Virus record (IMG/VR): IMGVR_UViG_3300048837_000140
Location: 1-35,111 of that record
Strand: one strand, 5' to 3'
Origin: a virus
Length of the DNA: 35,111 nucleotides
How positions within the stretch are numbered: the stretch's first letter is position 1; every line of letters begins with the position of its first letter. The notes beneath the pieces are model-generated. The model did no database searches and was not told where the DNA came from. It saw nothing but the letters and a program-made list of their open reading frames with translations. Positions 2 to 23,000 of the stretch are shown here, piece by piece. The translations under genes were made by a program, and so were the position numbers.

Positions 2-1297
2 TACAACGCAGCCACAACCGGCGTGCAGGTATCCAAGCGCCCGCCATCGCTCGGCATTGTCGAGCCATCCGGTGCCGTCCGTGCGCCAGTCTGCGATCCG
101 GTGGGCGATGATGCGCCGCTAAGTATTGCGGAGTTGCACCAGCGGCTGAACCTGGTCGGCAAGGTCGGGCACGCGAAGGGCACGCTGGACAATGTCATGC
201 GGGTTCTGGAAGGTCACAGGCCGTTTCTGGGCCGGTTCTACTATGACGACTTCCACGGCACGGTGTTCAGCTCATGGGGCGCTGATACCCCGGATGCCTA
301 TTACAAGTGGACGGATGCCGACACGCTCAGGCTTAACCTGACCATGCAGCGCGAGTGCGGGCTGGCTGAAGTGCGAGCAAGTCCTATTGAGGATGCGCTA
401 CAGATACTGGCGCGACGGCGCACCACGAATGAAGTAATGGAATGGCTTGAAACGCTGAAATGGGACAAAGAACCACGGCTCGAAATGATGCTGCCTGATG
501 CCTTCGGTGCGCCAAGTAACAAATACACTTGGGCGGTCGGGCGGTGCTGGCTTACGTCAATGGTCGCCCGCGCCTATCAAGGCGGGTGCCAAGTGGACAC
601 TATGCCGATCTTTGAAGGCTCTCAGGGTGTCGGCAAAACCCAGGCGCTGCGCATTTTGGGCGGCAAGTGGTATTCAGAATGCCATGAGTCGATCCAGAGT
701 AAGGACTTCCTGCAATCCCTGGCCGGTGCCTGGCTGGTCGAAATATCCGAACTCCACGCCTTCAAGCGCGCCGATGTCGAGCGCATCAAGGGAATCATCA
801 CGACCAGAATAGACCGCTATCGCCCGTCATATGGCCGGCGCGTGCAAGATTTTCCCCGCCGCGCCGTATTCGCCGGCACAACAAACCGCGACACCTGGCA
901 AACCGATGACACGGGCGGGCGCAGATTCTGGCCGGTCGAAGCCGCGCAAGTAAATCTAGAATATCTGTCCGACAATCGGAACCAGCTCTTTGCGGAAGCT
1001 GTCGCGCTATACAAGGCTGGCCGGTCATGGTGGGACATTGACGCAGACCTGGCAGCAGCTGAGGTTGAGAAGCGGTTCGAGATAGACGAATGGGAAACGT
1101 TGCTTAAGTCCTGGCTGCAAGGCCGCGATACGGTTGACTACGCTGGCTGTATGTATGCGCTAGGTATGAAAGCGTCCCAATGGGACCGGGCTATACAACT
1201 GCGCGTGGCGTCAATCCTGCGGCGCATGGGCTATAAGTCTGCGACCGTGTACCTTGACGGCTCTACCAAGCGGGCATGGAAACGCGGTAAAAAATAA
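2..1297 (+). CDS. VirE/VapE-type phage helicase (primase-helicase), 5' truncated
   Basis: This is the C-terminal part of a replication ATPase. A Walker A motif GSQGVGKT lies at 617-640. It is followed by an acidic segment VEISEL near 740 and a conserved stretch ending GTTNRDTWQTDDTGGRRFWPVE near 880-940. That arrangement is typical of the virulence-associated E (VirE/VapE) family of superfamily-3-like helicases, often fused to a primase in phages. A GTG at 23 could be a start, but the frame stays open to the window edge, so the N-terminal part, probably a primase or primase-like domain, is likely upstream. It is convergent with the minus-strand block and separated from it by a terminator. It probably unwinds phage DNA in replication. 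The family call is confident; the primase half is inferred only. Confidence 0.85.
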   Translation, partial: YNAATTGVQVSKRPPSLGIVEPSGAVRAPVCDPVGDDAPLSIAELHQRLNLVGKVGHAKGTLDNVMRVLEGHRPFLGRFYYDDFHGTVFSSWGADTPDAYYKWTDADTLRLNLTMQRECGLAEVRASPIEDALQILARRRTTNEVMEWLETLKWDKEPRLEMMLPDAFGAPSNKYTWAVGRCWLTSMVARAYQGGCQVDTMPIFEGSQGVGKTQALRILGGKWYSECHESIQSKDFLQSLAGAWLVEISELHAFKRADVERIKGIITTRIDRYRPSYGRRVQDFPRRAVFAGTTNRDTWQTDDTGGRRFWPVEAAQVNLEYLSDNRNQLFAEAVALYKAGRSWWDIDADLAAAEVEKRFEIDEWETLLKSWLQGRDTVDYAGCMYALGMKASQWDRAIQLRVASILRRMGYKSATVYLDGSTKRAWKRGKK

Positions 1298-1339: not shown

Positions 1340-1843
1340 TCAATAGTCGAACCAGCGGCGGGCCATGCTCAGGCCGTATTGTCGCTTGAACTGGCGCCGG
1401 ATCGCGTCTCCGGCAGACTCGCCCGGCTTGGCCGCTGCTGCGAAATCCTCCCGGTACCAATCCCAAAGGGCAGCAGCCAGCACGGCGGCCACTGCCCGCC
1501 GGTACTCTGTCGGCCAATACTGGCCGGTGCAGTAGTCGAGCTGCTGACCGTCCCATGACAGGCGGCCACAGAAAGCCCGGAAGCCGCCTTTCAGTGTCTC
1601 AGTGTCCATGCTCGACAGCTCGACAGCTCGCAGCAGCGTCCGTGCGTCTGCCAAGTCACGCGTAATGCTGCGCAGCTCGGCGCGATAGGCTGGCACGTTG
1701 CCATAATTGTTAAAATCCAAGCCGGGGCGCTGGCTGATCCATTTGCCCATTGCCGCCAGAATCGTGGCGCGTTCCTGGTCGGTTGATCCGGCTTCGGCTG
1801 CTCTACGGTGGGCTTCGTTCTGATACGTCGCGGTGTGGTCCAT
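1340..1843 (-). CDS. Conserved phage protein of unknown function (167 aa)
   Basis: This is a soluble, mostly helical protein with no recognised catalytic motif and no membrane segment. A good Shine-Dalgarno AGGAGA (complement of 1852-1857) lies 8 nt before the ATG. The central region has a DYCTGQYWPTEYRRAV block followed by a hydrophobic helix (AAVLAAALWDWYRE), and the protein ends in an R/F/Y-rich tail. I recall similar proteins beside clamp or replication genes of podoviruses, without a known function. It is the last gene of the leftward block, so it may be early and linked to replication. That role is inferred from neighbours only. Confidence 0.7.
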   Translation of the reverse strand: MDHTATYQNEAHRRAAEAGSTDQERATILAAMGKWISQRPGLDFNNYGNVPAYRAELRSITRDLADARTLLRAVELSSMDTETLKGGFRAFCGRLSWDGQQLDYCTGQYWPTEYRRAVAAVLAAALWDWYREDFAAAAKPGESAGDAIRRQFKRQYGLSMARRWFDY

Positions 1844-1860
1844 TGGTCCTGTCTCCTAAC

Positions 1861-1870
1861 GGTTAGTGGT
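1861..1870 (-). promoter_or_regulatory. Leader box ACCACTAACC upstream of the 1843 start
   Basis: On the minus strand ACCACTAACC sits 3 nt upstream of the AGGAGA ribosome-binding site. The same 10-mer precedes the RBS of the clamp-like gene (2445-2454), and ACCACCGACC precedes that of the 2873 gene. It could be a translational leader element or a relic of cassette duplication. Confidence 0.4.
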
Positions 1871-1913
1871 TCATCGTGCAGCAGGCTATTGCTAACCCGC
1901 TGCCCGCTGCCCG

Positions 1914-2426
1914 CTAAATCCGCATCGGCATTACGACTGCAATCACGTCTGCGCCACAGTGAACCCGGACCGCAGAGCTAGCGTCAATGCTGCCGTCCTC
2001 ATTCAGTGCGAATTGCAGGCCGATTCCCTTAACGCCTGCTGCCTTCTGTATTGCAGCCAGATACTCGGCATTAATGCCAATCTGCGCGGTTCCGTCCTTT
2101 GGGATGATCCTATCGAAGTCCGGGAACTGTCCCAGGTCGCCAGGGCGCGGGAAGGTCGGACCATTGGCTACCGCCAGGCTGCCATTGCAGGCGATCGCCG
2201 CGTCGCAATGCCTGCCCGCAGCCTTGATAGCAGCCTTGATTGCTTCGGCGGTCACTGGGCCGGACGTGTCGCCATCCTCGATCGTGACCGGGATGCATAC
2301 CAGTTTATGCCCGTCAGTCGCCACAAGGCGCGACCCGGCCACGTCAAGGTGCGCGGCGGTCAAATGGGTGCGACTGTCTTTCTTCGCGATGATTCCGGAA
2401 ATGTCGTGTGATTTGTTGAATTGCAT
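1914..2426 (-). CDS. Miniature DnaN-like sliding clamp (DNA polymerase III beta-like), 170 aa
   Basis: Several signatures match the bacterial beta clamp. VATDGHKL (residues 35-42) corresponds to the VATDGHRL motif of DnaN domain II. GQFPDFDRIIPKDG followed by a helix matches the domain II/III junction (GRFPDYRRVLPKN in E. coli). The last residues VVMPMRI match the DnaN C-terminus VVMPMRL. At 170 residues it is less than half the usual 366 or so and seems to lack domain I and parts of II and III. A ring would therefore need more subunits than the normal dimer, or the protein may bind clamp partners without forming a ring. RBS AAGGAA lies about 8 nt upstream. It is likely a phage processivity factor or a modulator of the host replisome. 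The family call rests on motifs; the stoichiometry is unknown. Confidence 0.7.
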   Translation of the reverse strand: MQFNKSHDISGIIAKKDSRTHLTAAHLDVAGSRLVATDGHKLVCIPVTIEDGDTSGPVTAEAIKAAIKAAGRHCDAAIACNGSLAVANGPTFPRPGDLGQFPDFDRIIPKDGTAQIGINAEYLAAIQKAAGVKGIGLQFALNEDGSIDASSAVRVHCGADVIAVVMPMRI

Positions 2427-2444
2427 TGCGGTGGTTCCTTCTGT

Positions 2445-2454
2445 GGTTAGTGGT
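2445..2454 (-). promoter_or_regulatory. Leader box ACCACTAACC upstream of the clamp-like gene
   Basis: This is an exact copy of the 1861-1870 box, just upstream of the AAGGAA RBS. The wider segments 1861-1915 and 2445-2505 also share ATCGTG(C/T)AGC and repeated CCCGCT motifs, so the two intergenic regions look like diverged copies of one sequence. Confidence 0.4.
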
Positions 2455-2470
2455 GGTTAGCGTCTATCGT

Positions 2471-2492
2471 GTAGCCCGCTGCGACAGGCTAC
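2471..2492 (-). other. Small stem-loop between two minus-strand genes
   Basis: GTAGCC (2471-2476) pairs with GGCTAC (2487-2492) around a 10-nt loop. There is no U tract, so this is not a convincing terminator. It could be an RNA processing or stability element in the leader of the clamp-like gene. Confidence 0.3.
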
Positions 2493-2502
2493 CCGCTAGG
2501 CG

Positions 2503-2679
2503 TTAGCAGTCGTCGCCGTAGCTCGGCGGTTCGCAGCCGCACCAGTCGGTCCATTCGCGGCCATCCGGGCAAGCGGGATGCTCCATGCCGGTCTGCCCGT
2601 CCGATGCTGTACAGGCGACGCATAGCGCCAGCCAGCAGGTTACAAACAGGGCCGCCAGCAGGCTGGGGCGGGCGGTCAT
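2503..2679 (-). CDS. Small exported or membrane-anchored cysteine-rich protein (58 aa)
   Basis: I chose the start at 2679 because its ATG overlaps the TGA of the upstream gene (ATGA), although an ATG 9 nt upstream is also possible. The N-terminus has one basic residue, a hydrophobic stretch (SLLAALFVTCWLALCVAC) and then a polar region. This resembles a signal peptide, or a lipoprotein signal with an imperfect lipobox ending CVAC. The mature part is short and rich in Cys, Trp, Pro and acidic residues (ending EPPSYGDDC). The function is not recognised. A surface or periplasmic role, such as an envelope change or exclusion, is conceivable but unsupported. Confidence 0.5.
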   Translation of the reverse strand: MTARPSLLAALFVTCWLALCVACTASDGQTGMEHPACPDGREWTDWCGCEPPSYGDDC

Positions 2680-2873
2680 GACGCGCACCGGTCGGCATAG
2701 GCGATTGCATGTTCGCGAGTCTGGTACTCACGGTCCCCGACCTTCTCACCGGTCGGGATGTCGCGAACCGTCACGCGCCAATTCCCGGCGCGGCTATGAC
2801 CGCGCGGTATCTGGTGGATGGTCACGCTTACGTCGTCGGTGGCGCAGCTATAGATGGTCTCGGCGTGGTTAAT
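2676..2873 (-). CDS. Small hypothetical protein with probable ATT start (65 aa)
   Basis: An open frame on the minus strand runs to the TGA at 2676-2678, overlapping the next ATG. It has ordinary protein-like composition (for example GNWRVTVRDIPTGEKVGDREY). Between the preceding in-frame stop and the end there is no ATG or TTG, and the first GTG (2823-2825) has no ribosome-binding site. An ATT at 2871-2873 lies exactly 8 nt downstream of a perfect AGGAG (complement of 2882-2886), and the leader box ACCACCGACC abuts that SD. I therefore propose an AUU start; the GTG start would give 49 residues. The function is unknown. It would be the first gene of the leftward block. Confidence 0.5.
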   Translation of the reverse strand: MNHAETIYSCATDDVSVTIHQIPRGHSRAGNWRVTVRDIPTGEKVGDREYQTREHAIAYADRCAS

Positions 2874-2896: not shown

Positions 2897-2956
2897 GGTC
2901 GTTGTCGATGTGGCGACTATGAGCGCGTCATTACCTGTGGTCAACAGGCGGTGACG

Positions 2957-2985
2957 CCTATATTGCCAACATTACCAAAGGTTAA
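2957..2985 (-). promoter_or_regulatory. Candidate sigma70-like promoter for the leftward block
   Basis: On the minus strand TTAACC (complement of 2980-2985) and TATAGG (complement of 2957-2962) are separated by 17 nt, each matching four of six consensus positions. A transcript starting near 2950 would have a leader of about 75 nt before the ATT-start gene. The match is weak and rests on position as much as on sequence. Confidence 0.25.
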
Positions 2986-3064
2986 TATTCCGCAACGCAG
3001 CGGGCAGTTGATCTAGGTCAATTTGGATTATGCGCATACGGTTTTCCGTGTTGCAGCACGTTTT

Positions 3065-3079
3065 TGCAGTGCAAGAGGA
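3065..3079 (-). repeat. TTGCACTGCA box, inverted copy
   Basis: The reverse complement reads TCCTCTTGCACTGCA and is identical over 15 bases to 3250-3264. With the copies at 3255 and 3436 it forms a second repeat family interleaved with the first. Confidence 0.7.
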
Positions 3080-3146
3080 AAATGACCGTTATGTGCATAT
3101 TCTGGGTCGTGGTGCATAAATCTCTGTTAGAACGGCCCAGCATTGA

Positions 3147-3224
3147 CGCGGGTTCTAACGTTCTCTAACGGTGACAGAATCGGCCTCAAACCCTTGCCCA
3201 GTATGGCCTGAGCTCTCTTACTCT
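3147..3224 (+). repeat. Left arm of 78-bp imperfect inverted repeat
   Basis: This arm matches the reverse complement of 3318-3395 without gaps at 56 of 78 positions by my count. The conserved blocks are CGCGGGTTCTAACG, TGACAGAATC, GCCCAGTA, GGCCTG and TCTTACTCT, separated by diverged spacers. Conserved blocks with free spacers suggest protein-binding sites rather than an RNA hairpin. Confidence 0.8.
3159..3178 (+). repeat. Direct repeat copy 1, CGTTCTCTAACGGTGACAGA
   Basis: This 20-base sequence recurs exactly at 3406-3425, outside the right arm of the inverted repeat. The motif therefore occurs as two direct copies, and its GGTGACAGA half also occurs once inverted (3361-3372). Confidence 0.85.
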
Positions 3225-3249
3225 CTATTACTCTAATATATATCTAGTA

Positions 3250-3268
3250 TCCTCTTGCACTGCACAAC
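3250..3268 (+). repeat. TTGCACTGCA box, central copy
   Basis: TTGCACTGCACAAC (3255-3268) lies inside the AT-rich core of the large inverted repeat. It matches 3436-3449 over 14 bases on the right, and with its TCCTC extension matches the inverted copy at 3065-3079. Confidence 0.7.
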
Positions 3269-3317
3269 ACGTACTGCATACGGCAGCACCACATTTACAC
3301 GAAATGTTTGAGATTTA

Positions 3318-3395
3318 AGAGTAAGACGCTCCAGGCCTTACTGGGCGTGGCTTACACTAGGATTCTGTCACCAGTTGTTGGCGTTAGAACCCGCG
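3318..3395 (-). repeat. Right arm of 78-bp imperfect inverted repeat
   Basis: This is the mirror partner of 3147-3224, with the axis near 3271. The blocks appear inverted as AGAGTAAGA, CAGGCCTTACTGGGC, GATTCTGTCACC and CGTTAGAACCCGCG. The equal arm length and ungapped alignment argue against chance. Confidence 0.8.
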
Positions 3396-3405
3396 CCGCT
3401 GCGTG

Positions 3406-3425
3406 CGTTCTCTAACGGTGACAGA
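3406..3425 (+). repeat. Direct repeat copy 2, CGTTCTCTAACGGTGACAGA
   Basis: Exact match to 3159-3178, 247 bases downstream. It lies 10 bases outside the right inverted-repeat arm. Confidence 0.85.
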
Positions 3426-3435
3426 TTATGTAAAG

Positions 3436-3449
3436 TTGCACTGCACAAC
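3436..3449 (+). repeat. TTGCACTGCA box, right copy
   Basis: TTGCACTGCACAAC is identical to 3255-3268. It stands about 190 bases before the terminase small-subunit gene. Confidence 0.7.
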
Positions 3450-3632
3450 GACCTAAAATGGCGTCCAAATAGCGCTAATTTGGCACGGATCATGCAAGCG
3501 AATAGGCGAACCGCGCACAATCGCATATAGCGCACAGTCACGGCTCCGGCAGGCATAGGGCAGGGCCTACAGGCCAGCGATCAGCAGGCGAGCATATAGG
3601 CGGGCTGGCGTGGGCGTGGTAATGTCGCCGCC

Positions 3633-4253
3633 ATGTCGAAAGCATCAAGCCTGGACTATGCGCCACCGGCAACAGTGCTAGACGTGCGGGATCTATCGCC
3701 GGGTGATTGCCCGCTAGACCCGGCTCCGGTCAGTACCGCGTACAGCGCAGACATGGCCGGAGTGATCCTGGACCAACTCGCCGACGGTCGGACGCTGGCC
3801 GACATATGCCAGCAGGCGGGCTATCCGCGTGCGGCGACCGTGCGCCGATGGGCAGTCGATGATGTGGCCGGGTTCGCCGCCCGGTATCAGCAGGCACTAG
3901 AGCTACAGGCCGACGCCTGGTCGGACGAGCTGGTGCAGATAGCAGACGGCGCAGACGACGCCGACACGACACGCGACCGGCTCAGGATCGAGACGCGCCA
4001 GTTCCTCATGAGGGTTCGCAACCGCAGCACATACGACCCACCCAAGCAGACCGCAACAACGGATGCGCTCGACTGGCTGGCCGTCCTGCAAGCGGCAGGG
4101 TTAGCAGCTCAACCGGCAGCACGTACCATCGAGCAAGGCGCGATCATCGAGCATGAGGCAGCGCCAGCCATCGCAACCGCGCAGCAGATGGGTCCCCTTC
4201 CGCAGCCACCGGGCGACACGGGGTTTTCGCCGGAGTCCCATGAGCGCGGGTAG
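3633..4253 (+). CDS. terS: Terminase small subunit
   Basis: The protein probably recognises phage DNA and regulates packaging by the large subunit encoded next. Residues 44-76 form a helix-turn-helix-like segment (LADGRTLADICQQAGYPR...TVRRW), followed by a helix rich in Ala, Gln and acid residues. This layout is that of small terminase subunits of BPP-1-like phages. The C-terminal 60 residues are Ala/Pro/Gln rich and probably flexible. The length of 206 aa is ordinary. No strong Shine-Dalgarno precedes the ATG at 3633, so the start is not certain. Its place directly before the large subunit gives most of the confidence. Confidence 0.8.
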   Translation: MSKASSLDYAPPATVLDVRDLSPGDCPLDPAPVSTAYSADMAGVILDQLADGRTLADICQQAGYPRAATVRRWAVDDVAGFAARYQQALELQADAWSDELVQIADGADDADTTRDRLRIETRQFLMRVRNRSTYDPPKQTATTDALDWLAVLQAAGLAAQPAARTIEQGAIIEHEAAPAIATAQQMGPLPQPPGDTGFSPESHERG

Positions 4254-4326: not shown

Positions 4327-5805
4327 GTGTTAACGGCTGACGTACAGGCGGCGTTTGCGGAGAGGCTGCCGCGTTGGAAGGATAGTCCGGCGCTGATGGT
4401 GCGGGAGTTATTTGGGGTGGAGCCTGACGCGTGGCAGGTACGCGTGTTGGAGGCTTTCCCGGTGACACAGCGTCAGGCGATGCAGGCCTGCAAAGGCCCT
4501 GGTAAGACGGCGTTGTTGGCGTGGTTGGCGTGGAATTTTCTGTTGACGCGGCCATTTCCGAAGATAGCGGCGACGAGCGTGACTGGGGATAACTTGTCGG
4601 ACAATTTGTGGGCGGAGATGGCGAAGTGGCAGCAGAAGTCGGTATTGCTGACGGAGTTATTTTCGTGGACCAAGACACGGATCAGCAGCAAGCAGTATCC
4701 CGAGACGTGGTTCATGAGTGCGAGGACGTGGCCCAAGAGTGGTGATCCGAAGGCGCAGGCGGATACGTTGGCGGGTTTGCACGCGGATTACATCATGTTC
4801 TTGTTGGACGAGAGCGGGGGCATACCGGACGCGGTGATGGCGACGGCTGAGGCTGGGTTGTCGTCGTGCATTGAGGGTCACATTGTTCAGGCTGGGAACC
4901 CGACGATGCTGAGTGGTCCGTTGTATCGGGCGGCGACGCGGGATCGGGCGCTGTGGCATGTGACGGAGATAACGGGTGACCCGGACAGTCCGTTGAGGTC
5001 GAGTCGTGTGAGTGCGGAGTGGGCGCGACAGCAGATTGGGATGTACGGGGCGGAGAACCCGTGGGTGCTGGTGAACGTATTTGGGCGGTTTCCGCCGTCG
5101 AGTTTGAACAGTTTGTTGGGGTTGGGAGACGTGATGGCGGCGGTGGAGAGGCGGTATGAGCCGCTGGTATGGGAGGGTGATGCGGTCGTGATGGGTGTGG
5201 ACGTGGCGCGGTTTGGGGATGACGCGAGCGTGCTGATGCGTCGCCAGGGTCGGAAGGTGTTTGACCCGAAGCTGTGGAGGAACATGGACTCGGTGAGTGG
5301 TGCGGCGCATGTGTCGCTGGAGTGGGGCGCGGTGGATGCTGATGCGTGCTTCGTGGACGACACGGGCGGGTACGGGAGTGGGTGGATCGACAATTTGCGT
5401 CGGTTGGGTCGGTCGCCGATAGGTGTGCCGTTCAGTGGACGTGCGATGAACACTGGGAAGTATTTGAACAAGCGTGCTGAGATGTGGTTTCTGATGGCGG
5501 AGTGGGTGAAGGGTGGCGGGTGGTTGCCGAACGTGCCGGAGTTGATTGCTGACCTGACGGAGCCGACGTATACGTTTCGGGCAGACAAGCTGATGATTGA
5601 GGACAAGGATCAGATCAAGGCGCGGTTGGGTCGGTCGCCTGACTGGGGAGATGCGTTGGCGCTGACGTTTGCGTATCCGATAGAGGGTCGTGCGCGTGGG
5701 CGGTTGGCGCGTGCACAGAAAGAGTTTGGTATTACCGCAGTGCAGGACTATGATCCGTGGCAACGCGACGAGGCCGAGGAAGGGCGGATAGCCCGGTTGC
5801 ATTGA
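4327..5805 (+). CDS. terL: Terminase large subunit (packaging ATPase/nuclease)
   Basis: This is the DNA-packaging motor. The Walker A-like motif CKGPGKT is at residues 55-61 and Walker B FLLDES has D161/E162. The C-terminal RNase H-like nuclease has GVDVARFGDD with D292, VDDTGG with D344/D345, and PDWGDALAL with D439/D442. The length of 492 aa is normal. The start is a GTG at 4327 preceded by AGAGGTAAGG. Codon choice is striking: G-ending codons (GCG, ACG, TTG, GTG, CGG) dominate far more than in neighbouring genes, which leaves a long stop-free antisense frame. That suggests a different history for this gene or strong strand-specific bias. Confidence 0.93.
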   Translation: MLTADVQAAFAERLPRWKDSPALMVRELFGVEPDAWQVRVLEAFPVTQRQAMQACKGPGKTALLAWLAWNFLLTRPFPKIAATSVTGDNLSDNLWAEMAKWQQKSVLLTELFSWTKTRISSKQYPETWFMSARTWPKSGDPKAQADTLAGLHADYIMFLLDESGGIPDAVMATAEAGLSSCIEGHIVQAGNPTMLSGPLYRAATRDRALWHVTEITGDPDSPLRSSRVSAEWARQQIGMYGAENPWVLVNVFGRFPPSSLNSLLGLGDVMAAVERRYEPLVWEGDAVVMGVDVARFGDDASVLMRRQGRKVFDPKLWRNMDSVSGAAHVSLEWGAVDADACFVDDTGGYGSGWIDNLRRLGRSPIGVPFSGRAMNTGKYLNKRAEMWFLMAEWVKGGGWLPNVPELIADLTEPTYTFRADKLMIEDKDQIKARLGRSPDWGDALALTFAYPIEGRARGRLARAQKEFGITAVQDYDPWQRDEAEEGRIARLH

Positions 5806-6389: not shown

Positions 6390-8093
6390 ATGGCAGAGAC
6401 TGAGCGCAAGCGATACGGGCGGCTGGTATCGGCACTGAAGCAGGATCGGGCATCGTGGGAACCGCACTGGCGCGACCTGTCAGACCATTTCCTGCCGAGG
6501 CGCGGTGAGTGGTTGGGCGTTCAGAGCAACAGCACATCGAGGCGCGGAGACAAGAGAAACCAGAAGATGATCGACGGCACGCCGCGCTACGCGGCCCGCA
6601 CATTGGCGTCAGGGCTGATGGCCGGTCTGACTTCTCCGGCGCGTCCGTGGTTTAGGCTCACGACGCCTGACCTTGGGCTAATGGAGTATTTGCCCGTCAA
6701 GCAATGGCTGTACGCGGTCGAGCAGCGTATGCGAGACGTGTTCTCGCGGTCGAATCTGTACAACACGCTGCCGGTTGTTTACAGCGAGTTGGGCGTCTTT
6801 GGCACGATGGCGATGCTTGTAGACGACCATCCGACTGAGGTTATTCGCTGCCAGCCGTTCACCATCGGGTCGTACTACTTGGCGAACAATTCCGACTTGC
6901 AGAACGATACGTTCGTGCGCGATTTCAGGCTGACGGTTCGGCAGTTGGTGCAGAAGTTCGGACGCGCCGCCCTGTCGCCGCAGGTTGAGAATCTGGTTCG
7001 GTCGGGGAACTTTGAGCAGCAGATCGACGTTGTGCATATCATCACTCCAAACGGCGACCGTGAGATTGGCGCTTCTGGCGCGAAGGGCATGGGAGCCTTG
7101 TCTGTGTACTACGAGGCGTCTGAAGGTGACGCTCAGGACAAGTTTCTGAGCAAGCAGGGCTACCACGAAAACCCTGTCATGGCCGGTCGGTGGGAAGTGA
7201 CGAGCGACGAGGTGTATGGGTCGAGTCCCGCGATGGATGCGCTCGGCGATGCACGGGCGTTGCAGCTACAGCAGAAGCGCAAAGCGCAGGCCATCGACAA
7301 GCACGTTGACCCGCCGATGGTTGCCCATCCTTCCATGCGGAACGACATGCCATCGGCGTTGCCAGGCATGACGGTATTCTCTGAACAGAACACGGGGTTC
7401 GCCCCGGCGTACACGATCAAGCCTGAGATTCAGGCGCTGATGCTCGACATACGGGAGATTCAGGAACGCATCAAGATTGCGATGTACGAGAACCTGTTTC
7501 TGATGATTTCGCAGAGTGACCGGCGCGAGATTACGGCGCGTGAGATTGACGAGCGGCACGAAGAAAAGCTGTTGCAGCTCGGGCCGGTGCTTGAGCGGTT
7601 GAACGATGAAGTGTTGGACAACCTGATAGACAGGACGTTCAACATCATGGTTCGGCGTTCGCAGCCGTACTGGGAAGGCAAGCTGATGGGCACGCCATTG
7701 CTGCCGCCGCCGCCGCCAGAGCTGGCTGAGATAGACCTGAGGGTTGAGTACATCAGCATCATGGCGCAGGCACAGCGCATGGTGGCGACTGGTGGTCTTG
7801 AGCGCACCGTGGCGTTTGTCACGTCGATAGCTGGCATTGACCCGGATGCGCGTGACAAGGTGGACTTCGATCAGTTGATCGACGAGTACACGCAGTCGCA
7901 GGGCATTCCGCCGACAGTCGTGCGCGACGACAAGGTAGTTGCAGAGATACGAGCGGCACGGGCAGAGCAGGCGCAGGCGGCGCAAGCCGCGCAGCAGATG
8001 CCTGAAATGGCAAAGACGGTGAAGATGCTCGGCGAGACGCCGACTGGCGGGGATACGGCACTGACCAACATTGGTGAGGCGCTGGCCGGATGA
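6390..8093 (+). CDS. Head-to-tail connector (portal) protein
   Basis: This is the podoviral portal, forming the ring at the capsid vertex through which DNA passes and to which the tail attaches. The N-terminus (RWx-type segment SWEPHWRDLSDHFLPRRG, then ARTLASGLMAGLTSPARPWF) is the signature of the phage head-to-tail connecting protein family seen in T7-like and BPP-1-like phages. The length of 567 aa is normal. The C-terminal 60 residues are Ala/Gln rich. The SD is AAGGGG in the 6380s. The stop overlaps the next start (ATGA). Confidence 0.93.
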   Translation: MAETERKRYGRLVSALKQDRASWEPHWRDLSDHFLPRRGEWLGVQSNSTSRRGDKRNQKMIDGTPRYAARTLASGLMAGLTSPARPWFRLTTPDLGLMEYLPVKQWLYAVEQRMRDVFSRSNLYNTLPVVYSELGVFGTMAMLVDDHPTEVIRCQPFTIGSYYLANNSDLQNDTFVRDFRLTVRQLVQKFGRAALSPQVENLVRSGNFEQQIDVVHIITPNGDREIGASGAKGMGALSVYYEASEGDAQDKFLSKQGYHENPVMAGRWEVTSDEVYGSSPAMDALGDARALQLQQKRKAQAIDKHVDPPMVAHPSMRNDMPSALPGMTVFSEQNTGFAPAYTIKPEIQALMLDIREIQERIKIAMYENLFLMISQSDRREITAREIDERHEEKLLQLGPVLERLNDEVLDNLIDRTFNIMVRRSQPYWEGKLMGTPLLPPPPPELAEIDLRVEYISIMAQAQRMVATGGLERTVAFVTSIAGIDPDARDKVDFDQLIDEYTQSQGIPPTVVRDDKVVAEIRAARAEQAQAAQAAQQMPEMAKTVKMLGETPTGGDTALTNIGEALAG

Positions 8094-8410
8094 GCAAGCC
8101 GACAACGACCCGTCAGGCGCGTGAGGAACAGGCGACCAGGCGCAACGAAGAACTTGAGGACTTGCGAAAAATTGTTGCAACGCCTGAAGGGAAGCGGTAT
8201 ATCTCACGCCTACTAGTGCAGTGCAACGTGTTCGGCGTGTCGTTAGACCCTAACGGTAGCCGGATGTACTGGAAAGAGGGGGTTCGCAGTGTAGGGGTCG
8301 GGATCATGAACGAGATAGCGTTCATATCGCCAGAACTGCTGACCGATCTGTTGCGTAAACCGGCTGAGAGGCCGCTGGAAAAAGTAGAGGAATCCGATGA
8401 CTCAGACTGA
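8090..8410 (+). CDS. Bbp19-like phage protein (106 aa)
   Basis: The core EDLRKIVATPEGKRYISRLL...FGVS, then YWKEGVRSVGVGIMNEI and SPELL, matches the small Bbp19-like family found between portal and scaffold genes in BPP-1-type head modules. The biochemical role is not established. The protein is charged and helical, with an acidic C-terminus. It overlaps the portal stop by ATGA, and its end overlaps the scaffold gene by 14 bases, so the three are translationally coupled. Confidence 0.8.
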   Translation: MSKPTTTRQAREEQATRRNEELEDLRKIVATPEGKRYISRLLVQCNVFGVSLDPNGSRMYWKEGVRSVGVGIMNEIAFISPELLTDLLRKPAERPLEKVEESDDSD

Positions 8411-9011
8411 AACAGTCCTTACCGCACAGGCAACAACCGACGCGGCTGCGGGCAATGGTCAGGCTGACGACAAGACTGTTGCCGCTGGTAGTGATACCGG
8501 GCAGGTAACAGAAACAACCGGCAAGACGGAGGCGACTGTTACTGCCCCTGTCGTACCGGAGAAGTATGAGGCTTTCAAACTGCCTGAAGGTACGGAACTC
8601 GACGCGACGGCGCTGGCTGAGTTTGAACCCATTGCAAAAGAGCTGGGGCTGACTCAGGACGGTGCACAGAAGGTCGTTGATCTGTACGCAGGGCAAGTCG
8701 CAAAGCTCGCGGAGGCACAGCAGAAGCTGATCGGCGATACCGTTGCCGAATGGGCCAAGACAGCCCAAGCCGACAAAGAGTATGGCGGCGACAAGTTTGG
8801 GGCCAACATCGCAGTCGCACAGAAGGCGATCAGCGACTTTGGTTCGCCAGAACTGGCAAAGATGCTCAACGAGACTGGGCTTGGCAATCACCCGGAGTTG
8901 ATCCGGTTTTGTCTGAACGTCGGTAAAAAGCTGTCGGAAGATAGTGTCGTGCGCGGGAGCAAATCCGCCGCCGCTGTCGATACGGCAGAATTGTTTTACG
9001 GAGCTAAATAG
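8397..9011 (+). CDS. Capsid scaffolding protein
   Basis: The probable internal scaffold for procapsid assembly. The N-terminal 55 residues are low-complexity Thr/Ala/Gln. They are followed by YEAFKLPEGTELD...FEPIAKELGLTQDGAQKVVDLYAG, a recurrent block in proteins encoded immediately before podoviral major capsid genes. The rest is helical and ends with a charged segment. RBS GAGGA precedes the ATG. The length of 204 aa and the position between portal and capsid genes both fit. Some homologues are annotated as scaffold/protease, but I see no protease motif here. Confidence 0.8.
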   Translation: MTQTETVLTAQATTDAAAGNGQADDKTVAAGSDTGQVTETTGKTEATVTAPVVPEKYEAFKLPEGTELDATALAEFEPIAKELGLTQDGAQKVVDLYAGQVAKLAEAQQKLIGDTVAEWAKTAQADKEYGGDKFGANIAVAQKAISDFGSPELAKMLNETGLGNHPELIRFCLNVGKKLSEDSVVRGSKSAAAVDTAELFYGAK

Positions 9012-9015
9012 CTCC
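9000..9015 (+). promoter_or_regulatory. Stem-loop at the scaffold stop, upstream of the capsid gene
   Basis: GGAGCT (9000-9005) and AGCTCC (9010-9015) form a perfect 6-bp stem with loop AAAT. It spans the scaffold TAG and ends just before the capsid RBS (AGGTGAGGA). There is no U tract, so it is not a terminator. It may stabilise or process the mRNA for high capsid expression. Confidence 0.4.
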
Positions 9016-9034
9016 ACAGGTGAGGACTTAAATC

Positions 9035-15392: not shown

Positions 15393-17005
15393 TGCCACGG
15401 GTTCCAACATACCAGCAGAACAGGGTTTCGCTCCGGGCCGTGCCTGACGTTCGGACGGCACCGGCTCCGCAGCCGCTTGAGGGGGCAGACAAGGCGCTTT
15501 CTCAGGTCGGTGCGGCGGTGGATAGCATCTATCAGGACGAGAAGCGCAAGGCGACGATTGCCAGCGTCTACGAGGCACGGGCAGCAGTCGATGCACTGGC
15601 TGACGACATCGAGTCGAACCCTGAGACGGGGGTTATTGCGCAGCGCGGTAAGAACGCTGTCAACCTGGAATCCAGGTACATGCCTGGCTGGGACGAGAAG
15701 ATTGGGGCGATACGTGGGAAGTACGCGACAAACCCTGATGTGCTGTTGGCGCTAGACGGGTACACGGCTGATAGGGGTAATCACCTACGCCGGTCGATGG
15801 CTCGGCACGAATACGGCGAGACGCAGAAGCTGTATGTAACTGGGATCGAGGCGGCTATTACTACCGCACGCGACAAGGCTGTGTCGGCGACTGATCCGAA
15901 TGAGAGTGAACGACATATCCAGCTCGTGCGGAACGCCGTGACTGATCTTGGCGCAGTGGCGGGCTGGACGCCGGAAATTGTCGCGCAGAAGCAGAAGGAG
16001 CAGGAATCTGGTGCCCGTCGCGGTGTTGCCGAGAACCTTATCAACAAGGGTCAGTACGACGCAGCGAAGGCGTACATGGGCAAATACGGCGATACGCTGA
16101 CTGAGGAAGATGAGGCGGCTGTCGTTCAGTACGGGAAGGTGGCGGCACAGCGTGAGTTGGCAGAGCGTCGGTCTGCTATATCGTTCGCCCGCCAAGAGGA
16201 AGCCTATCGCAAGAACCAGCAGTTTGAGGCGACCAGCAAGCTGTACTTTGACAAGGGCGCAGGCGCTATCACGACTGAGATGCTGTCGAACCTCGATGAC
16301 TCCGGGCGTCAGGCCATGCTCAGGATGATGAATGGCGAGCAAAAGGACACAAGCCGCAGCGATTACCTGTATTCATCGCTGATGGATATGTCGGTGCGCG
16401 ATCCCGTCAAGTTCAAGAGTCTAGACCTGATCCCGTACTACGAAGGCATGTCTGAATCAGACATCACGCGACTGAAGGCTCGGATGGATGATGTCAGGAA
16501 GGATCAGAACGCACCGCTGAAGCCGAAAGAAACAGAGCATATGACGCGTTCTACGCAGGCGTCTAGGGTGCTGCGGGCGACGTTGTTCCCTGACGCTAAA
16601 GAACTCACAGGGAAGGCAAAGACAGAGTTTGAGTCGGCTACCGTTGAGTTTGCCAATCGCATCGAATCACTGAACGCAGACGGCAAGATGACCAGCCAGC
16701 AGTTCGACGATGAGCTGTCTAGGTTTGCAGCGGAGAAGTGGGCGAGGAAATATGCGAAGGCTGACGATGGCTGGTTCGCCGACAAGCCTGACGCAAATCT
16801 GCCGCTGCCAGATACGGCATATATCGACACGTCAGACGTTCCAGAGACCATCGAGGCGAACTCGGTAAAAATACTGAACGACATGGCAAGCGAGGAAGGC
16901 ATCACACTGACCGACGATATGCTTAACGAGGCATACGTCATATGGGCGACGAGAGGCGATGAAGGCGTCGAGCTGTACCTGAAGGCACTGAGGGGTAGCA
17001 AGTGA
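15392..17005 (+). CDS. T7 gp15-like internal virion protein (537 aa)
   Basis: The probable periplasmic-tube component of the ejected complex. I chose the ATG at 15392 because it overlaps the preceding TGA (TGATG) and begins MPRVPTYQQNRV, a common start in this family. Upstream in-frame codons translate as low-quality sequence inside the gp14-like gene. The protein is almost wholly helical and charged, with no membrane span, and has a segment YMPGWDEKIGAI...HLRRSMARHEYGE. Its stop overlaps the next GTG start (GTGA). Confidence 0.8.
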   Translation: MPRVPTYQQNRVSLRAVPDVRTAPAPQPLEGADKALSQVGAAVDSIYQDEKRKATIASVYEARAAVDALADDIESNPETGVIAQRGKNAVNLESRYMPGWDEKIGAIRGKYATNPDVLLALDGYTADRGNHLRRSMARHEYGETQKLYVTGIEAAITTARDKAVSATDPNESERHIQLVRNAVTDLGAVAGWTPEIVAQKQKEQESGARRGVAENLINKGQYDAAKAYMGKYGDTLTEEDEAAVVQYGKVAAQRELAERRSAISFARQEEAYRKNQQFEATSKLYFDKGAGAITTEMLSNLDDSGRQAMLRMMNGEQKDTSRSDYLYSSLMDMSVRDPVKFKSLDLIPYYEGMSESDITRLKARMDDVRKDQNAPLKPKETEHMTRSTQASRVLRATLFPDAKELTGKAKTEFESATVEFANRIESLNADGKMTSQQFDDELSRFAAEKWARKYAKADDGWFADKPDANLPLPDTAYIDTSDVPETIEANSVKILNDMASEEGITLTDDMLNEAYVIWATRGDEGVELYLKALRGSK

Positions 17006-20000
17006 GCGTCATTCAGCTACGTCCACGCGACCCGCTTGATGCGGGCCTGACTGACGCAGCGCCACTTGGGGCCGAGCAGCCGAAGCCGGACACTGACCCT
17101 AAGCGCGGGGTTATCTTTCGTCCTAGCACTACGGTCGCTGTGCCGGAACTGAAGGCGCTCGTCGAGCCGGTAGCCGCACCTGAGCCGCCCAAGCCGGAGC
17201 CGCCGCCTGAGAACGCCGACAACGAGTATCTGGCACGCGGCATGACCGGCGACGAAGCTGCCGAGCAGTTGCAGCAGTTGTCCATGACTGGTCTGCCGTA
17301 TGGCATGGCAATGCAAGCGCCCGGTGCTGTCGCAGCTATCGCAAAAGAGAAGGAGCAGCAGGACATCGCCGCGATGTCTGAGTACACGCCGTCGCTGAAG
17401 GCGTGGCGCGAGGCGAACCCGCACCGGACTGCCATCAGCCGCGACAAGTTCAAAGAGATGGGGGTGATGGAGTGGCTGCTGAAGGCACCTGGTCAGGCTG
17501 TCAACAGGTCGTACTTCAGGAACGAGATTACCAACATCAACATGCACGACATGGACGGCACGATGACGCCGGAGATGGCTGCGCGGCGTGATGTGTTGGA
17601 GGAAGCGTCGTCGGTTGGCGGTGAGGACTACGGCAGCAGTTTGGTTGGACGGTTCCTGACCATGCCTGCCGAAAACGTAGCGAACATTGCGAGGACGATG
17701 ACGGCTGGTGGCAAGCTGAGTGCTAACGCTGCTGCGGCTGTTGCCACCACGTCATTGCTGCTGAAGTTGCCGCCTGCTGTCACGCTTGAGGCGACGGCGC
17801 TGGCGATGAAGTCAGGTGCGATCATCGGATCGGGCATCGAGGAAGGGCGCTTAGAGCGTGCCAATGCGTTCCGCGAGTACACGATGATCCCCGGCGTTGA
17901 CCGTGAGGCGGCACGACTGGCGGCTAACGTGGTCGGCATCATCAACGGCGCGTTCGGTATGACCGAGGCGAAGATACTCTTTGACTCCATTCCGGCGTTC
18001 AAGAATTTCGGCACGAAAGCCGCTATCAAAGCCGCTGTTGGTGCAGCACTGAAAGACCCCACGACTGCCGCCAAGTTTGCCGTACTGGCGAAAGAGGTCG
18101 GCGCGTCGTTTGGGGAAGGCGTTGCTCAGGAGGTTGGGCAACGGGCCAGCACCATCTTGGGCGAGCATTACGCCCGCGCAGAGTCAGGTCTGCCGCTGCG
18201 GTCTGCCGGAGAGATAGTCGGCGACATTGGCGCAGAAGCGGAAGGCGCAGCGTTCATGTACCCGCTGATGCTGCTGCCAGGGGCAAGCATCAAGTCCTAT
18301 CGCATTGCCCGCGAGCATAAGTACAGCGAGAATCGACCAGACAAGACCATCGACAAGTTGAACGAGGCGGCGACGAAAATCCCGTTCGCCAAGTCGCCTG
18401 AAACGTACAAGTCCTTCGTCAAGGAGGCTGCGGCTGGCACCGGCAAGGAAACCGCCTACGTCAATCTTGAGGGCTTCCAGACGCTGTACCAGACGCAGGA
18501 CGAAGATCCACGCGAAAAGGCGGTTGAGTTGTTTGGTAGTGCAGAAGCCTACGACGAGGCCGTTGCGAGCGGTGGTCCTATCGCTGTCCCTATTGAGCAA
18601 TGGACGGCGACGGTATCGCAGAGCAGTAACAAGTCGGCGCTGTCTGAGCATATGTCGTTCGACCCGGACGGCATGACGCGCTATGAGTATGAGGCTGCAC
18701 AGGCGGAGGCCGATAAGGACATCACGGCTGAAGATGTCGGCGCAGAGGACGCTGCGACAACCGACCTTCAGGCACTTGAGGACGACATACGCGGGCAGCT
18801 TGTTGGCAGCGCCCACACGCCGGAGTCTGCGGATACCTTTGCGAAGTTCCTTGCGTCTGGCTATGGCGCGGCGGCAAGTCGCAGCGTGCGTAGTCTTGCC
18901 AGCATCAGGGCGATGTTCGACCCGATCATCAAGCGGTACATGCCGGGGCTTGAGTCGGCTGCATCAAACACGAAGGTACTGGAAAGCCAAATCCACATGA
19001 TCCAGATGGGTCAGGGGCCAACTGACAAGGATATGTACGGCGATAGCGTGCTTGAGTTCATTCGCAAGAATGGCGGGCTGAAGTACGACAAAGGCGGCGA
19101 ACTGAAGGGCATGGATGCCAGATTCCAGAGTCTCATCAATGAGGCCGGGAAGAACCTTGACGACATGGCAGGGATGGCGCAGGAGGCCGGTTACATCACC
19201 GAACATGACCAGAATGCGCTGCTGGAACTGATAGCCGATGAACTAGGCGGCAAGAAGGCGTATTCGACCAGAAACATCAATAGCAACGCGGAGCGCATGA
19301 ACGCCGACCTGAATGCGCTGCACGACGCCATCAAGGCGTTCGACATCGACCTTAGCCAGACGCCGCAGCAGATCGCCAAGCAGCTACACGCCAAGAACAA
19401 CGAGCAGGTTACGGAGAGTGGTGGGGACACGTTGGAGCAGGCGGCGTATCACGGGTCGCCGCATAATGTTAAGAGGTTCGATCTATCGAAAATAGGGACA
19501 GGAGAAGGTAAACAGTTATACGGATGGGGAATATATTTTGCAGAATTAAAAGAAGTTGCAAAGCAGTATGTGAGGGCTGGTAGAAATATTGGATTTGACA
19601 ACCGAGACGGTGTGCCACAGTTCATATCAAAATCTCTTGCGATGACTGGCGGAGACCATCAGGCCGCTATCGGAATCCTTAATGATGAACTGTCGAAAAC
19701 AAAGGGCGATACCAAGTCGCTGAACCTGAAACTAGCTATTAAGCATTTGTCAAAAGGTAACGTTGATTACGGACTCTACAATGTCGATATTCCTGATGAT
19801 GCTATATCAAATATGCTCGACTGGGACAAGTCGCTAAGGCAACAGCCTGAGAGTGTGCGTAAGGCTATAGAGGGGTGGGTAGGGCCGGAAGCGTTTGCGG
19901 AGTTGTTGAAGCGTGGCACGACAGGGATGCAGCTATACAGCATGGCCCCAGCCCCAAACGCAGCGAACAGGGATGAAGCGCAGAAAATGGCAAGCGAGCA

Positions 20001-23000
20001 TTTTCGCTCCATCGGCATCCCAGGTCTTAGATACCTTGATGGTGATAGCAGGTTAGTCGGAGAAGGAACGAGAAATACAGTTGTATGGGATCAATCTGTA
20101 CTAGACAACATATCAGATAGCCTTGCATCAGACACCCTATTCCAAAAGCAGGGCAAAGCCGAACCGAAAGGCTCCGTCACCTTCACTGGCACGCAAGCCA
20201 TTATCAAACTGTTCAAGGCGCAGGATCGCAGCACGTTCATCCATGAGGGGGCGCATATCTTCCTTCGTATGCTGATCGAACTGACGAAGGATGGTAATGG
20301 CACGCCGCAGATGCAGGCCGACATGCAGACGCTGATGGACTGGTGGAAGATCACATCACCAGACCAGATCACCGTTGAGCATGAGGAAAAGTTTGCCAAA
20401 GGCTTTGAGAAGTGGGTGGCGAAGGGTGAGGCTCCGTCGCTGGCATTGCGTGACGTGTTTGCCGCCATGAGCGCATGGCTGATGCGCGTCTACAGCGGCA
20501 TTGTCCATAGGGGTATCGCTGTCAGCCCTGCTGTCGAAGATGTGATGAAACGGATGATGGCGACCGACGCCGAGATAACTGCCGCGATGGAGCAGAAGGG
20601 GGCGCTTGACCTGCTAACGGAGATTGACAAGCAGAACATCCTGGCACCAGAGGAAATGGAGGCGTATCGCAAGGATATTCAGCGCAAACATGACGATGCC
20701 GTTGCGCTACAACTGCGGAAGCTGACCGCTGCAAAGGAAAAGGCCGAGCGCGACATGAGCAAGTCGCACTATCAGGCCATCAAGGATGAGGTTGCAAAAC
20801 AGGTACACGCCATGCGCGTGTATCGGGCGATCTTCGCCATGCGCGACGGCACCACGCCTGACGGCATACCGCTGCCTAACGTCGAGAATCTGAAGTTCAA
20901 CGCCGCTGATCTGGCTGAGAACTACGGCACCAATGCTCGCGGCGATGACAAGAAAATCATCAAGAACCCGCTGGTGGCGCGACTGCGTGAATTGGGGCTA
21001 GTGGCATCCGGTCAGAAGCAGTACGAGCTTGACCAGAAAACCGGCAAGCCGATCACCCGCAATGGCAAGAAAGTGCGCCTGCCAGACTTGGGGATGCGGC
21101 TTGAGGACGTGGCGCGTGTGACTGGCTACAACACCGCCGATGAGATGGTCGAGGAACTGGCATCGTCGCCGGATATGAACGAGGCCATCAAGGCCGAGAC
21201 TGAGCGCCGGATGCGGGTTGAACACCCGGACGTGATCTATGACGGCACGCTGGCTATGGAGGCGGTAGAGGAAGTCACGTCCGGCGAGACAGGACTTGCC
21301 ATCGCACTTGCCGAGCAGCGTGCAATGCGGGCTGTCGCCGCCATACAGCGGAAGGCGGAAGCGGTTGCGGATCGCAAGGCGCGGAATGCGGAGAAAAGCG
21401 CAGGCCCGCCGATCACGCTGGCAATAGCGCGGCAGTACGCTAAGAGCGTGCTGTGGAACAAGCCCATCGGCCAGATCAAGCCTGAGCAGTATCGGAAGAT
21501 AGCTCGGGCGGCTGCGCTAAAGGCGATTGATGCGGTCAAGGCGAAGGACTTTGCGGCTGCGGTCAAGCACAAGCGCACGGAGATTTTGAACATCGCGCTG
21601 TATACCGAAGCGCGGAAGATAGAGAAGTCTGTCACCACCAAGCGCAATCAGATGCTGGCGCTAACCAGCGTTCGTATGCGGCAGGTCATCGGCAGGGCTG
21701 GCGAGGGCTACTTGGAGCAGATTGAGGCTCTGCTGGCTCAGGTGGAGATGAAGAAAATATCTGACGTTCGCCGCCGCCAGATCATGCCGTTGCAGGCATT
21801 CGTGCAGGCGCTACAGGCTGAGTTCAAGGACGGCGAGATAGACCCGACCAGCGTTGGTCATATCCCGCCCAAGCTGTCCGAGTTTGTAATGAGCGGCGCG
21901 AAGCCATATCAGGAGATGACGGTCGCTGAGTTTAACGCGCTGCACGACGATGTGATCCAGTTGGCGACACTGGCACGCGGAATCAACAAGCTGCTCGATG
22001 ACAAGGCCAAGCAGACCTTGAGCGAAGGACAAGAGGCGCTGGCTGGCGCTGTCCGTGACAATGCCAGGGATGGTCGGCAAGCGATCACTCACAACGAGAT
22101 GCGCCTTCCACAGCATAAGTTGATGCGCGGATTGCGATGGTTTGCGGCTCACCATCGCAACTTTGCCAGCCATGTGCGTGAGGTATTTGACGGACTGAAG
22201 GATAACGGCGTCGGCTTCAAGCTGCTGCTGAAGGGATTGCAGAAGGCCGGTGACACGCAGGCCAAGATGCACCGAGACGCAACACTGGCGCTCGGTAAGG
22301 CTGCGAAGATATACAACAAGCGCGAACGGCTGATGATGACTCGGAACCCGAAGATTGTGCCGGGGACCAACATCGCCCTGACTCATATGGGGCGGCTGAT
22401 GTTCACGCTCAATCTCGGCAATGCCGACAATACCAACAAGATGATGCAGGCTGGGTTTGCCACTCGGACGGCGACCGATGCGCGTGGCAACAAGGTTCCA
22501 ATCCCGATCACAAAGGCTGAAGTGCGGGCCATTCTGGATACGTTGACCGCGAAGGACGTTAAGTTTCTCAACAACATATGGGCGCAGATTGACTCCTACT
22601 ACGACGCTGTTGCTGAGAAAGAGAAGAAGATTCGCGGGATCGCCGCGCCTCGGGTTGTGGCAACACCGTTCGATGTCAAGGCGGGACATCTGACAGGCGG
22701 GTACCTGCCTATCGAGGGCGAGCAGCGGGCTTCGGTGTCGTTCCGTAACCAGTTGTCGCAGAGTGCCGAGCGGCTGATGAGCGAAGGTGGCGGGCAAATC
22801 CTGCCGTCACGGGACTTCACCCATGAGCGGCAGGCAAAAGCCAAGCACCCGCCATTCCGTCTGGACTTCTCTGTGGTCACTCAGCATATCGCGGAAGTTA
22901 CCCACTACCTGTCGTACTACGAGTACGTCATGGACACCGCCAGACTGCTCGGCGCTGACAATGTGCGGAACTCCGTGGTGGACGTGTACGGCGACCAGGT

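Follow-up and report, generated by a model that had tools for sequence, protein, structure and literature searches.

The window analysed here is a whole linear virus contig of 35,111 bases (IMG/VR record IMGVR_UViG_3300048837_000140) with a podovirus-like gene set: a VapE-type helicase, an Sf6-type terminase small subunit (TerS), a terminase large subunit (TerL), a head-tail connector (portal) protein, a GP7-type capsid protein and tail genes. The helicase has lost its 5' end at the contig edge; its full-length counterpart in the relative L006 is 683 amino acids long and is 99% identical across the overlap. Between a short set of minus-strand genes on the left and TerS on the right lies a noncoding, repeat-rich region, which an initial annotation had rightly called divergent and had read as a possible origin, operator cluster or packaging site. 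Sequence comparison indicates that positions ~3120-3430 very probably form a phage replication origin of the VapE/D5-helicase iteron kind; of the three earlier suggestions the origin gained support, and neither a packaging site nor a pure operator cluster is favoured.

Inverted iteron arms around an AT-rich centre

The region is dominated by an inverted repeat of 85+85 bases (3140-3224 / 3318-3402; 60/85 identical) with its axis at 3271, an extension of the 78+78 repeat with 56 of 78 identities that had been described before and that we recover at 3147-3224 / 3318-3395. It scores 27.5, whereas 60 dinucleotide shuffles of the region average 10.4 and peak at 13.2, and it is the top-scoring inverted repeat of the 35-kb contig; the runner-up (15.7), an 18-bp TTGCAGTGCAAGAGGA pair, lies in the same region. 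The other repeats that had been reported are also there: an exact 20-base direct repeat at 3159-3178 and 3406-3425, three GTTCTAAC boxes, one direct (3152-3159) and two inverted (3126-3133 and 3383-3390), and three TTGCACTGCA boxes, one of them inverted (Table 1). The hexamer TCTAAC occurs nine times in 35 kb, with five of the copies inside 330 bp. The AT-rich centre described earlier is present, though only a moderate one, reaching 70% AT in 40 bp (3220-3259, between the arms) against ~42% contig-wide. The exact 20-mer had no copy in a scan of viral contigs, and neither megablast against phage records nor Rfam gave a match. The GC skew of the window was uninformative because the contig is incomplete and nearly all of its genes are co-directional. 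Elsewhere, a coding gene at 8090-8410 contains a TTGCACTGCAC box and, after it within 40 bp, CGTTAGA and CTAACGG (8216-8256), a motif pair matching that of the repeat region; the box and CGTTAGA are also present in L006 (12078-12110).

Relatives were taken from a TerL search of viral contigs and comprise L006 (98% TerL identity), L007-L009 (88%), which represent a single lineage in this region, and L010 (87%). A single-sequence helicase query reached only L006 and L009. For three-genome comparisons, the first two relative lineages (L006 and L009) were aligned to window positions 2940-3640 at ~84% identity. Stops occur in all six frames in all three genomes, thus ruling out open reading frames that span the region. 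Both iteron arms and their flanks are present in L006 and L009, and arm positions that are paired in the window are 78% invariant, against 44% for unpaired positions, which upholds the earlier proposal that the conserved blocks mark selected protein sites. The inverted repeat is stronger in the relatives (37.9 in L006, 31.7 in L009), where each arm holds as many as three TCTRACG copies (GGTTCTAACG, TCTRACGGTGACAG, GGCTCTAACGCTCTTACTCT), facing inward across the AT-rich centre, and one extra iteron lies beyond each arm (3126 and 3411 in the window). Counted on both strands, TCTAAC has five copies in the window and six each in L006 and L009. The window has lost part of the arm copies seen in its relatives. 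L010 has no long ungapped repeat but retains TTGCAGTGCAAGA, inverted sites of the GAGTTACA type and, as its AT-rich element, TACTCTAATATTTATCT.

Table 1. Features of the repeat region and adjoining genes (window coordinates)
Feature	Position	Strand	Remarks
VapE/D5-type (superfamily 3-like) helicase, C-terminal two thirds, presumed initiator	2-1297	+	PF05272 6e-72, PF19263 2e-7
Two genes between helicase and origin	1340-1843; 1914-2426	-	second clamp/RusA-like (phrog_3007); missing in L006
Possible 65-amino-acid gene, uncertain	2676-2873	-	ATT start after AGGAG ribosome-binding site
Left conserved flank, probable leftward promoter/regulatory block	2987-3118		92% invariant, three genomes
FNR/ANR-type dyad TTGATCTAGGTCAA	3008-3021		sole exact TTGAT-N4-RTCAA in contig; invariant in relatives
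Three DnaA-box-like 9-mers (3028, 3092, 3111)	3028-3119		single mismatch in each; in L006 one is perfect
TTGCASTGCAA box 1 (TTGCACTGCA inverted, 3065-3074)	3064-3074	-
Outer left iteron (GTTCTAAC inverted)	3126-3133	-
Left arm	3140-3224	+	iterons 3152-3160, 3164-3170; decayed third ~3206-3214
AT-rich centre, candidate melting site (TTACTCTCTATTACTCTAATATATATCT)	3200-3259		70% AT in 40 bp; TACTCTAATATWTATCT retained in L010
TTGCACTGCA box 2, close to axis	3255-3264	+
Right arm	3318-3402	-	intact iteron 3382-3390; decayed ones ~3327-3336, ~3370-3378
Exact 20-mer copy 2, with outer right iteron (TCTAACG 3411-3417) and GGTGACAGA	3406-3425	+
Right conserved flank, probable rightward (terminase operon) promoter block	3418-3540		92% invariant
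TTGCACTGCA box 3	3436-3445	+
Putative sigma54-like GG-N10-GC (TGGCACGGATCATGC)	3481-3495	+	spacing constant in three genomes
Terminase small subunit, Sf6 type	3633-4253	+	PF20901 1.5e-20
Terminase large subunit	4327-5805	+	phrog_2

Recurrence beside VapE/D5-type helicases

The same plan is found in other phages that encode a helicase of this kind. In three further TerL relatives with a close VapE helicase (L023, L036 and L045), iterons of either orientation enclose an AT-rich core ~40-270 bp past the helicase stop; their arrays begin 40-80 bp after the stop, sit between co-directional genes and are built from GGATAG, GGTAGCA and GGTAACA. A phage with a D5_N helicase (L018) has a 36+36 inverted repeat with an AT-rich centre at the equivalent place, in the helicase-TerS interval (8874-9033), which is probably the origin of that phage.

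A sample of 23 other VapE-helicase phages was assembled from helicase matches in a phage collection, picked by host diversity and then by even ranking steps, together with L023, L036 and L045. The phages checked come from very different hosts. In 18 of the 23, the best 7-mer cluster counted on both strands around the helicase stop has its equal in less than 1% of the remaining locus windows. The iterons vary by group (GTCAACA, CGTTTAC, GGGACAA, TGTAACA and so on) and are present in 4-12 copies in the segment 3' of the helicase, mostly with 0-2 copies elsewhere in the locus (exceptions 4 and 5). The 7-mer test gave no iteron cluster in the other five (L075, L083, L084, L085 and L086); hence either the rule is not universal or their iterons are degenerate. 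For phages with VapE-type helicases, inward-facing iterons around an AT-rich core should thus be expected just 3' of the helicase, as holds for most of those checked, and since the iteron sequence differs between groups, recognition of iterons by the helicase can be tested directly by swaps.

It is this comparison, with the same plan 3' of the helicase in 18 of 23 phages and in phages Sfi21 and P4, that leads us to prefer an origin over the other options. The window itself encodes the helicase, carries iterons in both orientations and has an AT-rich segment between the sets, although the iteron signal is weak when exact 7-mers are counted in the window on its own. In the mechanism we envisage, the VapE/D5-type helicase would bind the TCTRACG iterons, with its C-terminal domain perhaps making the contact, and the inward-facing iterons of both arms would allow a pair of helicase rings to form in a head-to-head arrangement. 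The rings would melt the AT-rich centre, whereupon bidirectional replication could start with the host polymerase. In a structural model, the C-terminal region of the helicase forms helices and a beta hairpin (mean predicted local distance difference test score, pLDDT, 79; the full-length model, at pLDDT 56, was used for the C-terminus only), which is compatible with a DNA-binding domain, not proof of one.

Several observations weigh against an origin. The window iterons are few and partly decayed, and the four TCTAACG copies (shuffle maximum three) are equalled by the top windows elsewhere in the contig. Some 1.8 kb with minus-strand genes separates the helicase stop from the first iteron (0.75 kb in L006). 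Matches of the C-terminal model in PDB are weak (E at least 0.03) and in part to winged-helix proteins. The flanks are 92% invariant against 66-71% for the iteron arms, an excess that an origin alone leaves unexplained. Finally, in L006 an exact GGTTCTAACG lies on the minus strand at 4151-4160, 21 bp ahead of the helicase ATG, and within 19.7 kb it recurs only at the ends of the two origin arms. This suggests an initiator that regulates its own gene or, as would fit too, the operator of a regulator.

Flanking blocks, alternative readings and neighbouring genes

The conserved flanking blocks likely have a regulatory role, and their elements may serve as promoters or as auxiliary sites of initiation; probably they would hold promoters for the leftward accessory genes (2987-3118) and for the terminase operon (3418-3540). 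They contain two of the three TTGCASTGCAA boxes. The DnaA-like 9-mers exceed expectation (3 observed, 0.34 expected); this enrichment is not general in the other phages compared. We do not claim the sigma54-like site, since there is one exact match but matches with at most one mismatch occur at chance (20 found, 16.6 expected).

That the region is mainly a divergent operator or promoter, with a phage regulator binding its dyads (TCTAACGGTGACAGA and related) to switch the leftward genes and the terminase operon, appears unlikely. The genes do diverge on either side, TCTAACGGTGACAGA is an imperfect 15-bp dyad, and the highly conserved flanks with their FNR-type dyad and TTGCASTGCAA boxes would suit such a role, as would the GGTTCTAACG copy before the L006 helicase. 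However, a scan of the region for sigma70 promoters and terminators stayed at chance level (promoters: 1 found, 1.0 expected, at 2944-2916), and the arrays of L023, L036 and L045 lie between genes that do not diverge. The early region is absent from the window contig, and operator recurrence at phage promoters was checked in L006 instead. There, a YdaS/Cro-like gene (656-925, PF15943) upstream of the helicase suggests a temperate phage whose switch is located elsewhere; no copy of TCTAAC is found near this gene and none of TTGCASTGCAA, which we had considered as its operator. Moreover, an operator leaves the recurrence beside helicases of unrelated phages unexplained. A broader possibility, to which we give similarly little credence, is that one ~600-bp element combines the origin with the divergent control region: the helicase would bind the iteron at its own start codon as well as those of the origin, and the FNR/ANR-type dyad and DnaA-like boxes of the conserved flank would act as host sensors that couple replication and late transcription to the oxygen or growth state of the host.

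Less probable still is that TerS binds the region as a packaging start of pac or cosB-like type. Repeats near terS are usual at pac and cos sites, and the region lies ~200 bp upstream of TerS, but the array does not travel with the terminase as a pac or cos site should. In the 23-phage sample it follows the helicase even where the next gene is not the terminase. Conversely, among TerL relatives that lack a VapE helicase, most show only background-level inverted repeats upstream of the terminase and nothing comparable to this array; they include the Xanthomonas CP2 group (scores 12.9-15.9), despite TerL identity above that of L036 or L045. Some of these helicase-less relatives match the 7-mer counts through GC-rich words, so that the comparison, by which the element tracks the helicase and not the terminase, is suggestive rather than clean. 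Inverted repeats upstream of the terminase in L059, L061, L062 and L066 were set aside, as they look like repeats of a different sort, either coding or dispersed in the genome.

Least credible is a decayed mobile element or duplicated block with no present function: the arms do resemble two inverted copies of one ~80-bp block, but their paired positions are selectively conserved, L010 keeps a similar architecture though sequence similarity is lost, and no transposase gene was seen adjoining the element.

The minus-strand genes between helicase and origin vary in their set (window 1340-2873, L006 6377-6724, L009 3442-3813, the last including a gene with an ArdC-N anti-restriction-like domain) and look like exchangeable accessory genes. 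In the window, the frame at 2676-2873 has a good ribosome-binding site, with ATT as its sole plausible start. Among the structural genes, a protein of 2376 amino acids (17002-24132) matches phrog_9880, of unknown function.

Comparison with known origins

The likely origin placed here, in an undescribed podovirus group, is new and partly degenerate, within an already known origin type. Phage-inducible chromosomal islands (PICIs) always have two iteron sets on either side of an AT-rich region at their origins (PMC6092414), and the Rep protein of Staphylococcus aureus pathogenicity islands (SaPIs) uses its C-terminal domain to recognise iterons directly downstream of its own gene and apparently acts there as two hexamers (PMC7581432). 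Like these origins (SaPIbov1, SaPI5, EcCICFT073), the window element would be served by a self-encoded initiator helicase. The helicase family matches PDB 7pds, a solved VapE-like helicase ('Similar to D. nodosus vapE'; E 1e-119 with a profile built from 16 helicases). Unlike them, the element belongs to a full-size podovirus and has fewer iterons, set in ~85-bp arms. Under a strict definition, a PICI origin lies directly 3' of the rep gene; we do not class the window element as one because minus-strand genes intervene, with 1.8 kb from the helicase stop to the first iteron.

Two phage systems share the PF19263 domain, which is common to the window helicase, P4 alpha and the Sfi21 primase. The annotated ori of Streptococcus phage Sfi21 is likewise noncoding (302 bp), lies 3' of a D5-type primase-helicase and has an AT-rich core enclosed by AGTAAC/GTTACT iterons of either orientation; in contrast to the window, its iterons are denser, follow the gene directly and differ in sequence. 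In satellite phage P4, the crr/ori1 sites resemble the window in having type 1 repeats in a ++--+ arrangement beside the gene for the alpha helicase-primase. However, P4 uses two sites ~4.5 kb apart with TGTTCACC repeats, whereas the window has one known site.
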